Position numbers and translations under genes: made by a program. From Minwuiaceae bacterium (lineage in GTDB: Bacteria; Pseudomonadota; Alphaproteobacteria; Minwuiales; Minwuiaceae): DNA of 64,000 nucleotides. The stretch is from NCBI GenBank assembly GCA_028278525.1, contig JANQEE010000044.1, forward strand, positions 124,001 through 188,000. Direction: 5' to 3'. Below, one piece after another: positions 13,252 through 36,900 of this stretch; within the stretch, counting starts at the first letter, position 1; each line of letters opens with the position of its first letter. The notes beneath the pieces are model-generated. The model did not search any database. It was not told where the DNA came from and saw only the letters and a list, made by a program, of their open reading frames with translations.

Positions 13252-14271
13252 TCACAGTAAATCGTGTTTTTTCAACTGGTTACGAAGCTGGTCGTAGGTC
13301 AGCGTCAAATGGTTCGCCGTCGCCTTCTGGTTATAGCGGTTGGCGACCAGCGCCCCTTCCAGGATGCGCCGTTCGAAACCGGAAACCGCGGCCCGAAAAT
13401 CCATCGGCGTGGCGCCATCGATGCCGGCATCGACAGGCTCGACATGGGCCGGCCCGGTTTTTGAGGTAGCCGGGATCGACGGCCGGTACGGGGAAGCGAA
13501 CGGATCGAACGCGATATCGGCGACCGGCTCGGACGGATCGTCAGCTCGGTAGACCGCGCGCTCGACCACGTTCTTGAGTTCCCGCACATTGCCGGGCCAG
13601 GCGTACCCGGCCAGCGCCTCCAGAGCCTCGGCGGCGAAGCCCGGAAAGGCTTCCCAACCGAGCTCGCGCGCGAAGGCACGGCCGAAATGCTCCGCCAGCA
13701 GCGGAATGTCGTCGCGGCGGTGCCGAAGCGGCGGCACGGTCAGCACGTCGAAGGCGAGCCGGTCGAGCAGGTCGTGGCGGAACCGGCCGGCATCCGCGGC
13801 GGCCGGCAGGTCGAGGTTGGTCGCGCCGATCAAGCGTACGTCGACCCGATGGGTCGCGCTGGCCCCCACCCGCTCGAACTCACCATATTCGATGACCCTG
13901 AGCACTTTTTCCTGCACCGACAGGCTGGCATTGGCGATCTCGTCCAGGAACAACGAGCCGCCGTCGGCCAATTCAAACCGGCCGGCCCGGCGCTTGACGG
14001 CCCCGGTGAAGGCGCCGGCCTCATGCCCGAACAGTTCGGTCTCCAGCAGCGTCTCGGCCAAGGCGGCGCAATTGAGCTTGATGAAGGAACGGTCCCAGCG
14101 TTGCGACAGGTAGTGCAGACGCGAGGCGATCAGCTCCTTGCCCGTGCCGCGCTCGCCGATCACCAGCACCGGCCGGTCGAGCGGCGCGACGCGCGACACC
14201 TGCCCGATCAGGTCGTGAAAGGCCTGCGACTGACCGATCGGCTGCGGCAGTTCCGGTGGCAACGCATTCAT
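13252..14271 (-). CDS. pspF: PspF, sigma-54 enhancer-binding activator of the phage-shock operon
   Basis: 339-residue AAA+ activator lacking a receiver or ligand domain, as in E. coli PspF. Walker A is GERGTGKE (39-46), the sigma-54 contact loop GAFTGA is at 86-91, Walker B ends LFLDE (107-111), and the C-terminal Fis-type helix-turn-helix ends the protein. PspA normally inhibits PspF until membrane stress titrates it away. The gene is divergent from pspA, separated by a sigma-54 promoter. The ATG at 14271 is favoured over an upstream TTG because it matches the family start. Confidence 0.95.
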   Translation of the reverse strand: MNALPPELPQPIGQSQAFHDLIGQVSRVAPLDRPVLVIGERGTGKELIASRLHYLSQRWDRSFIKLNCAALAETLLETELFGHEAGAFTGAVKRRAGRFELADGGSLFLDEIANASLSVQEKVLRVIEYGEFERVGASATHRVDVRLIGATNLDLPAAADAGRFRHDLLDRLAFDVLTVPPLRHRRDDIPLLAEHFGRAFARELGWEAFPGFAAEALEALAGYAWPGNVRELKNVVERAVYRADDPSEPVADIAFDPFASPYRPSIPATSKTGPAHVEPVDAGIDGATPMDFRAAVSGFERRILEGALVANRYNQKATANHLTLTYDQLRNQLKKHDLL

Positions 14272-14394
14272 TCGAAAAATATACTGATTATTGGTGAAAA
14301 ATACCAACTATTAGGATCTTTTTTCTTCCACACAATTGAAGCTTCAGCAGCATTATTCAAGTAATTTCAATACCTTAAGAGGATTTACCAAAAC

Positions 14395-14410
14395 TGGCAC
14401 GGCGCATGCA
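14395..14410 (+). promoter_or_regulatory. Sigma-54 (RpoN) promoter of the psp operon
   Basis: TGGCACGGCGCATGCA matches the -24/-12 consensus TGGCAC-N5-TTGCA with GG and GC elements spaced ten bases apart and one mismatch in the -12 block. It sits 61 bases upstream of the first psp ORF and about 120 bases from the pspF start, leaving room for PspF-binding sites between. Confidence 0.85.
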
Positions 14411-14470
14411 ATCAACACCAGTGTCGGCACAGAAGGTGTCGGCGAATACGGATCGGAGGATATCACTGCC

Positions 14471-14635
14471 ATGCAAGACGCCGGTTTTATCGATCGCAAG
14501 CATCGTTCCGAACGCGGGACCTGGGACAAGGTGGAACGCCTGGGCGCCGCCGCCGTCGCCTACCTGCGCGCCCGCACGAAGGAGGAGTGGCTGATCTTCC
14601 TATGCGGCCTGATGCTGGGCCTGCTGCTCGGCTGA
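14471..14635 (+). CDS. 54-residue tail-anchored membrane peptide, first gene of the psp operon
   Basis: Begins at an ATG preceded by CGGAGG at normal spacing. The N-terminal two thirds is charged (IDRKHRSERGTWDKVERLG) and the C-terminus is a single hydrophobic segment (EEWLIFLCGLMLGLLLG) that would insert in the inner membrane. It is the first ORF after the sigma-54 promoter and lies 38 bases before pspA. By position it may act in the PspA-PspB-PspC stress circuit. It differs in sequence from E. coli PspD and PspG as I remember them; the assignment to a known family is open. Confidence 0.75.
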   Translation: MQDAGFIDRKHRSERGTWDKVERLGAAAVAYLRARTKEEWLIFLCGLMLGLLLG

Positions 14636-14673: not shown

Positions 14674-15354
14674 ATGAGTATCTTTTCCAGACTGGCCGAT
14701 ATCGTGAATTCCAACGTGAGCGCCCTGCTCGACCGGGCGGAAGACCCGGAGAAAATGATCCGGCTGATGATCCAGGAGATGGAGGACACGCTGGTCGAGG
14801 TGCGCTCGACCGCCGCCCGCGCCATCGCCGACCGCAAGGAGACCGAACGCCGCCTGACCCGCCTCAGCGACGCGCAGTCGGAATGGCAGCGCAAGGCGGA
14901 ACTGGCCCTGGCCAAGGGCCGCGAAGACCTGGCGAAGGGCGCGCTGCTGGAAAAATCCAAGCTGGCCGAGACTGCCAAGGCATTGGACGAGGAGTTGGAA
15001 CGCCTGGATGTGTCGCTCGGCAAACATGCCGACGACGTGGTTAAGCTGGAGGCCAAGCTGAGCGAGGTCAAAGCCAAGCAGAAGGCCTTGCAGGCGCGGC
15101 ATTCCACGGCCTCGTCCCAGCTTAAGGTCCGGCGTCAGGTGCACGACAGCCGGATCGAGGATGCCTTCACGCGTTTCGAGCAGATGGAACGCCGGCTGGA
15201 CGCGACCGAGGGCGATGTCGAAGCCTTCGACCTCGGCAAGGGCAAGACCCTGTCCGAGGAGATCGCCGAACTGGAAGTCGAAGGCGCGATCGAAGAGGAA
15301 CTGGCTGCCCTGAAGGCGCGTGTCGCTTCGAACTCCGCCGAGAAGGACGGCTAA
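14674..15354 (+). CDS. pspA: Phage-shock protein A
   Basis: 226-residue ESCRT-III-like coiled-coil protein that inhibits PspF and, when released, polymerises on damaged inner membrane. The amphipathic N-terminus MSIFSRLADIVNSNV, the DRAEDPEKMIRLMIQEME segment and the long charged helices are typical. A short gap separates it from the upstream micropeptide gene and three bases separate it from pspB. Confidence 0.96.
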   Translation: MSIFSRLADIVNSNVSALLDRAEDPEKMIRLMIQEMEDTLVEVRSTAARAIADRKETERRLTRLSDAQSEWQRKAELALAKGREDLAKGALLEKSKLAETAKALDEELERLDVSLGKHADDVVKLEAKLSEVKAKQKALQARHSTASSQLKVRRQVHDSRIEDAFTRFEQMERRLDATEGDVEAFDLGKGKTLSEEIAELEVEGAIEEELAALKARVASNSAEKDG

Positions 15355-15357
15355 ACG

Positions 15358-15585
15358 ATGGGCTTCTTTCTATTTGTGCCGGCGGTCATTTTCCTGACCG
15401 TCGTCGCACCGATCTGGATCATCGCCCATTACGTCACCCGCTGGCGGACCGGCAAGGCCATGTCCTCCGACGAGGAGAAACTGCTGGCCGAGCTCTGGCA
15501 GACGACCGACAAGATGGAACAGCGGATTGTCACGCTTGAGCGCATCCTGGATGCGGAAGCGCCCGACTGGAGGCGTTCGGAATGA
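15358..15585 (+). CDS. pspB: Phage-shock protein B
   Basis: 75 residues: an N-terminal membrane helix (about 1-25) and a cytosolic leucine-zipper-like helix ending in RIVTLERILDAEAPDWR, the characteristic PspB C-terminus. With PspC it senses stress and binds PspA. The stop codon overlaps the pspC start (ATGA). Confidence 0.94.
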   Translation: MGFFLFVPAVIFLTVVAPIWIIAHYVTRWRTGKAMSSDEEKLLAELWQTTDKMEQRIVTLERILDAEAPDWRRSE

Positions 15586-15989
15586 GCCCCCGCGATCGAA
15601 GACATCCCCGCGAGCCAAGCCCGAACCGGCTCTACCGCGACCCGTTCAACGGCAAGCTGATGGGCGTCTGCGCCGGCATCGCCGACTATTTCGGCTTCGA
15701 CGTCTGGCCGGTCCGCTTCGCCGCCATCCTGGCGCTGATCTTCTTCACGGTGCCGACGATCATCGCCTACCTGCTGGCCGGCGCGCTGCTGGACCGCAAG
15801 CCGGCCGACATGTACGCCACCAGCGAAGAGGAAGACCTGTGGCGCGGCATCCGCAACCGGCCGGGCCAGACGGCGCGCGACGCCCGGGTGCGCTTTCACG
15901 AGATGGAGCGGCGCCTGCGCCAGATCGAAGCCTACGTGACCTCGAAGGAATTCAACCTGAACCGCGAGATCCGCGATCTGGATCGTTGA
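15582..15989 (+). CDS. pspC: Phage-shock protein C
   Basis: 135 residues. The PspC domain core is FNGKLMGVCAGIADYFG followed by a hydrophobic membrane segment (about 45-70) and a C-terminal charged helix with RDARVRFHEMERRLRQIE and a final NREIRDLDR, as in enterobacterial PspC. It partners PspB in the membrane. It is the last gene of the operon; a GC-rich hairpin follows. Confidence 0.95.
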   Translation: MSPRDRRHPREPSPNRLYRDPFNGKLMGVCAGIADYFGFDVWPVRFAAILALIFFTVPTIIAYLLAGALLDRKPADMYATSEEEDLWRGIRNRPGQTARDARVRFHEMERRLRQIEAYVTSKEFNLNREIRDLDR

Positions 15990-36364: not shown

Positions 36365-36900
36365 GACGCCGGTTGCACGTTCGCCTCTAAGTCTCCTAAA
36401 CACCGAAAATAAAGATCGATCTACGAAGACCTCCGACACCAATTCGTTCGGCGGCACTCGGATTGTTAGCAATCAAAAGCAGGGCAATACTCGGCGTACA
36501 TTGATACCAAAATCGGCCTATGCCCGTTTGACTGTCGAAATTTTTAACATGTTAACCATAGCCGACTTTACACATTTGGACTAATTCGTTGAATTCGTTG
36601 ACGAACCGTCGTCTGGCACGGGACTTGCCTGTTAATAGCCTATAACGCATGACGAACCCCGTGCTGCCACGGACGTCATGCATTTAACTCCCAATGGACC
36701 TCCAAAACCTTAGGGAGTTACTGGCCTTGCAGGCGGCCGTATGGCACCGGTCCATATTGCCCCCTAGAACCGACCATGCGATCGCTTGCGAGGCTTCCTT
36801 TTTCTCCAGCCAGAAATCCGATCACGGCGAAATTTGTGGCGTGCTCAAGCGCGTGCGGGCATGCTCCCCCGGATACCGTCCTTTGATAGTGGAGTTGGCC
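36365..36900. other. Long intergenic region with sigma-54 promoter, otherwise empty
   Basis: About 535 bases. The first 300 are AT-richer than the genes around, with a tandem ATTCGTTGA repeat near 36583-36602. An 8-base stem (TAACTCCC / GGGAGTTA) spans 36685-36720. The only strong signal is the sigma-54 promoter at 36614. A frame continuing upstream of the next gene to 36694 lacks conservation to its family and is taken as leader. Confidence 0.6.
36614..36629 (+). promoter_or_regulatory. Sigma-54 (RpoN) promoter candidate
   Basis: TGGCACGGGACTTGCC gives GG and GC elements ten bases apart and matches the -24/-12 consensus almost fully. The first gene downstream on this strand is the hydrolase-OsmC gene, about 270 bases away, so a long leader or a short untranslated RNA is implied. 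Confidence 0.75.

Follow-up and report, generated by a model that had tools for sequence, protein, structure and literature searches.

The Psp system, through which bacteria respond to membrane stress, has been widely studied, and its PspA is a bacterial relative of ESCRT-III. To the question of how PspA finds damaged membrane, a conserved micropeptide encoded first in the operon adds a testable component. In the window (the whole 64 kb stretch of DNA analysed here), a short ORF of 54 residues, termed P54, lies between pspF and pspA. Is this ORF a gene, does it belong to the psp operon, and what might its product do at the membrane?

The psp operon and its promoter

The window contains a divergent pspF activator, a sigma-54 promoter and pspA-pspB-pspC, which together characterize a classical PspFABC system. 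The features are as follows.

13252..14271, minus strand: pspF, divergent sigma-54 activator (NCBIfam TIGR02974, 491 bits against a cut-off of 443.6)
14395..14409, plus strand: sigma-54 (RpoN) -24/-12 promoter, TGGCACGGCGCATGC (window sequence and same place in relatives)
14455..14460, plus strand: Shine-Dalgarno sequence GGAGGA, 10 nt before the ATG (sequence)
14471..14635, plus strand: P54, small ORF of 54 aa, predicted tail-anchored membrane peptide, MQDAGFIDRKHRSERGTWDKVERLGAAAVAYLRARTKEEWLIFLCGLMLGLLLG (family profile, in-frame selection, codon usage)
14588..14632, plus strand: 15-codon hydrophobic tail of P54, W40-G54, with a small-xxx-small motif, ending at the stop (near-invariant length in the family)
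14674..15354, plus strand: pspA (NCBIfam TIGR02977, 283 bits)
15358..15585, plus strand: pspB (PF06667, 104 bits)
15582..15989, plus strand: pspC (NCBIfam TIGR02978, 130 bits)

The promoter box TGGCACGGCGCATGC differs from the consensus TGGCACRNNNNTTGCW at one position and ends exactly 61 nt before the ATG at 14471, and a transcript start is expected near 14421. The source genome has an RpoN gene. A first-pass annotation of this DNA had described a near-consensus RpoN promoter 61 bases before a well-initiated ORF preceding pspA; the box at 14395-14409, the GGAGGA and the ATG at 14471 bear this out. Taken alone, the box is weak evidence, because the core pattern TGGCACN6TGC is expected 0.48 times by chance in 64 kb and occurs twice in the window. 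It becomes strong in context because relatives carry the same box at the same place. The stop codon of P54 lies 38 nt before the start of pspA, and the best explanation of the arrangement is that P54 heads an operon under PspF/sigma-54 control, P54-pspA-pspB-pspC.

Elsewhere in the window, a second near-consensus sigma-54 site, TGGCACGGGACTTGC (36614-36628, plus strand), may be a chance occurrence; the ORF that follows after about 270 nt (likely start 36901) resembles an alpha/beta-hydrolase fused to an OsmC domain. Between pspF and the psp promoter, an inverted repeat at 14291-14307, TTGGTgaaaaatACCAA, is a possible PspF site. The candidate PspF enhancer palindrome TAGCGAnnnTCGCTA has no exact copy in the window. 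It is found upstream of psp promoters in nine loci, some of which are the same genome repeated, and several alphaproteobacterial loci have TAGCGAnnnTCGCTA where the window has TTGGTgaaaaatACCAA.

P54 is a real gene

The base composition of P54 by codon position (GC 0.70/0.44/0.83) resembles that of pspA, and its codon log-odds are +33 bits in frame versus -45 and -58 bits in the other forward frames. Among 44 distinct coding sequences from a wider sampling, pN/pS pooled over pairs of related members is 0.23 in frame versus 2.09 and 2.02 in the shifted frames; in the pairwise values, picking pairs by amino-acid identity pulls the ratio somewhat downward. A family profile built without the window sequence scores P54 at 40.3 bits (E 7e-11), and the best of 5000 shuffles preserving the composition of the hydrophobic tail reaches 14.9 bits. 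The P54 ORF is a real gene under purifying selection. A spurious ORF, as its shortness and its lack of a Pfam or NCBIfam family might suggest, is hardly credible in the face of in-frame selection, positional conservation and the profile scores against shuffles.

Relatives of P54 lie beside pspA

The P54 family is defined here by location between pspF and pspA, by a C-terminal tail motif, and by a sigma-54 box upstream with none between the peptide and pspA. When the single P54 sequence was searched against 60 genomes, matches were weak; the three best non-self matches (E 0.004, 0.007 and 0.018) each lay directly between pspF and pspA. The first family profile, made from five seed peptides and run over 385 alphaproteobacterial genomes, gave ten matches at E < 1e-5, five of them the seeds and five non-seed sequences, all about 900 bp before pspB. 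With a 38-sequence profile, the same 385 genomes yielded 14 strong members (E <= 5e-10), which are themselves represented in that profile; without exception, they occupy the position between pspF and pspA. The next match anywhere (E 7e-4) falls inside long unrelated frames. In family-level searches covering three families, 53 of 82, 7 of 17 and 3 of 10 genomes contained members, and at every member locus examined the peptide gene adjoins pspA. One member (L037, genome G048) belongs to Hyphomicrobiales bacterium UR115.

In a scan of 398 genomes across the phylum, every strong match came from an alphaproteobacterium and lay next to pspA. The scan also gave four weak matches (E 9e-5 to 3e-3), which had no pspA nearby and were taken as chance. 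A plasmid collection queried with one family member gave no match. The first-pass annotation had proposed a search for homologues between pspF and pspA and had let its reading stand or fall with conservation of the ORF in relatives; several families of Alphaproteobacteria do contain strong relatives, and all of those examined occupy that location.

The promoter is placed in the same way across these relatives. With one exception, every lineage has members with a sigma-54 box ahead of the small ORF; in the exception, family f146, a pattern search found none. The distance from box to peptide is 26-64 nt in most members, but family f30 and genome G106 have 194-247 nt. In no member searched does a sigma-54 box lie between the peptide gene and pspA. 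Operons lacking P54 have short pspF-pspA gaps, and the box, where found, stands 48-81 nt before pspA. Because the box precedes the peptide when the peptide is present and directly precedes pspA when it is not, P54 appears to lie within the transcribed unit by design.

In f30, a further small ORF lies between box and peptide (L145 1289-1501 and L233 1268-1438, in the operon reading direction), and its stop overlaps the start of the peptide. The L145 copy weakly resembles DUF1127 (E 0.012, below cut-off). In Salmonella, the DUF1127 protein YjiS co-purified with PspA (PMC11707872).

A patchy distribution

P54 is patchy rather than general in alphaproteobacterial psp operons. A pspB gene is present in 42 of the 385 alphaproteobacterial genomes, and the peptide in 14 of these 42. 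Even within the same family as the window, genome G001 (L187) has a psp operon without P54, and its PspA falls in a different part of the PspA tree. Core Psp function does not need P54, since the gene is absent from about two-thirds of alphaproteobacterial pspB operons, this same-family operon included.

On the PspA tree, peptide-bearing operons form several clusters, with about eight gains or losses, at least six of which are forced by well supported branches; none of 500 shuffles reaches so few changes. A single origin of P54 on this tree was rejected because the distribution needs about eight gains or losses. Its history is either that of an old gene with repeated loss or one of transfer along with the operon.

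Anatomy and predicted topology

Family peptides are 43-68 residues long and consist of a charged N-terminus, variable in length and sequence, followed by a nearly fixed tail. The segment before the tail often has a basic, amphipathic character (Y-L-R/S/A-x-R), with a modest amphipathicity score (mean z 1.1). Median net charge ahead of the tail is +3, and some members have a net charge of zero or below. The tail follows the pattern W-x-x-F-x-A-G-x-x-x-G-x-x-L-G. Its length, counted from W to the C-terminus, is 15 residues in all of the 39 distinct peptides except one, which has 14; the W and the small-xxx-small spacing are present in all 39. P54 itself carries the tail by which the family is recognized, W-x2-[FL]-x-small-small-x3-small with 14-15 residues up to the stop. 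Fifteen residues flush with the C-terminus are too short for a comfortable span of the bilayer.

An AlphaFold2 model of moderate confidence predicts two helices separated by a break, at residues 4-33 and 38-53; its mean pLDDT is 69, and the tail is the best-scoring part (83-86). By the positive-inside rule, P54 would be an N-in tail anchor. The earlier description of a tail-anchored peptide with a charged cytosolic part agrees with the hydrophobic C-terminal tail and the positive median charge before it, the cytosolic face being the part that we infer.

P54 matches nothing in the databases searched

P54 had no match in Pfam or NCBIfam at E <= 10, none of 38 family members matched the PspD, PspG or LiaI models of Pfam, and the family gave nothing above chance against PADLOC profiles and PDB sequences. 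The P54 family is new to Pfam, NCBIfam, PADLOC and PDB as searched. Where they were word-searched, two large comparative Psp studies (PMC9239133 and PMC11237479) made no mention of such a gene; an earlier listing is possible. The first-pass view that the peptide is neither PspD nor PspG fits the lack of any Pfam or NCBIfam match, and its suggestion of an undescribed Psp-circuit component gains support from absence from databases, psp-only location and conservation. P54 is probably an overlooked part of the membrane-stress (phage-shock) response.

Other small ORFs in the same slot

Other lineages have unrelated small ORFs at this position. In five gammaproteobacterial loci (L043, L052, L057, L060 and L079), the pspF-pspA gap holds a lipoprotein-like ORF of about 70-75 aa with a SHOCT-like helix-pair end, in most cases with a sigma-54 box upstream; the L052 ORF matches SHOCT at E 1.8e-5, below cut-off. 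Halieaceae-type loci (L067, L080, L084 and L099) have an unrelated hydrophobic ORF of 59-61 aa upstream of pspA, and sphingomonad loci (L135, L170, L173, L098 and L108) an unrelated ORF of 51-61 residues with an N-terminal hydrophobic segment. Operons related to the sphingomonad ones (L235, L243 and L250) have several PspB-like genes after pspC. The unrelated ORFs in the same slot make P54 more than one odd ORF and lend support to a recurrent design in which a small envelope partner is made ahead of PspA. They suggest that producing a small membrane partner immediately ahead of PspA may be a general design.

What P54 may do

Coding, purifying selection, the exclusive pspF-P54-pspA location and the upstream promoter were computed, and from them we infer a molecular role. 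The favored reading, rated slightly better than even, is that P54 is an inner-membrane accessory protein co-induced with PspA and working with PspA, PspB and PspC at damaged membrane. Under membrane stress, P54 would be produced together with PspA, with its charged amphipathic N-terminal part on the cytosolic face of the inner membrane. The 15-residue AGxxxG tail would insert and pack against another helix, whether its own, that of PspB or that of PspC. There P54 might assist PspA or the PspA-PspBC complex in engaging damaged membrane, as an additional docking or effector subunit comparable to LiaI. Counting against docking are the absence of P54 from about two-thirds of alphaproteobacterial pspB operons, the modest amphipathicity, the zero or negative charge of some members, the moderate confidence of the model and the fact that PspB and PspC already give membrane docking.

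An unlikely but serious alternative casts P54 as a stress effector working on the membrane alone, for example through changes in lipid packing or ion leakage, co-induced with PspA, PspB and PspC and unbound to them; such a mode has been proposed for PspG or other small membrane proteins induced by stress. Its very small size, variable N-terminus and conserved hydrophobic tail would suit this role, as would the unrelated small hydrophobic ORFs of sphingomonads and Gammaproteobacteria in the same promoter-proximal slot, as if any would do. However, a free-standing effector might be expected away from psp operons, where the P54 family shows no sign.

Quite improbable is a role in feedback, with P54 tuning the release of PspF, for example by holding PspA or PspBC in an inhibitory or signalling state. 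A promoter-proximal gene would be made first on induction, and PspB and PspC are regulators themselves, but no sequence feature of P54 suggests binding to PspF or PspA, and its frequent gain or loss (on the PspA tree 8 changes, six or more of them forced) came without loss of PspF. It is likewise improbable that the tail itself senses membrane thinning or packing stress, inserting or oligomerising via AGxxxG only in damaged membrane and there nucleating assembly of PspA; if true, P54 would give this branch of the Psp response a stress sensor of its own.

A cis-acting leader, in which translation of the ORF and not its product controls pspA expression, is very improbable: P54 is promoter-proximal and close to pspA in the window, but its conserved amino-acid sequence, low pN/pS and fixed-length hydrophobic tail argue against such a leader, as does a spacing to pspA that ranges from 12 to 180 nt across the family.

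Comparison with known systems

As an accessory protein working alongside PspA, P54 would have several small membrane proteins for comparison. Like PspB, an inner-membrane Psp protein of about 75 aa with a single helix, encoded in the same operon, P54 is short with one predicted membrane segment; however, the helix of PspB is N-terminal whereas that of P54 is C-terminal, and the sequences are unrelated. The enterobacterial PspD and PspG are, like P54, small proteins of the Psp regulon whose function is unclear. Unlike P54, which precedes pspA and matches neither profile, PspD has its gene after PspC, and the gene for PspG lies elsewhere. According to one comparative study (PMC11237479), Gammaproteobacteria are the only group in which PspD occurs with the operon.

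The LiaI protein of the Bacillus liaIH operon differs from P54 in control, being under LiaRS rather than sigma-54 and PspF. It also differs in build, with a LiaI/LiaF-TM domain and several membrane helices where P54 has a single 15-residue C-terminal tail and no Pfam or NCBIfam match; PMC11237479 places LiaI in the LiaI-LiaF-TM domain family. LiaI is nevertheless a small membrane protein whose stress operon also encodes a PspA homologue, LiaH, which it anchors; both are co-expressed from liaIH (PMC9239133). Similarly, the small membrane proteins YdjG and YdjH bring B. subtilis PspA to the membrane (PMC8581546). In role, and not as a homologue or member, P54 may be likened most closely to LiaI and YdjG/YdjH.
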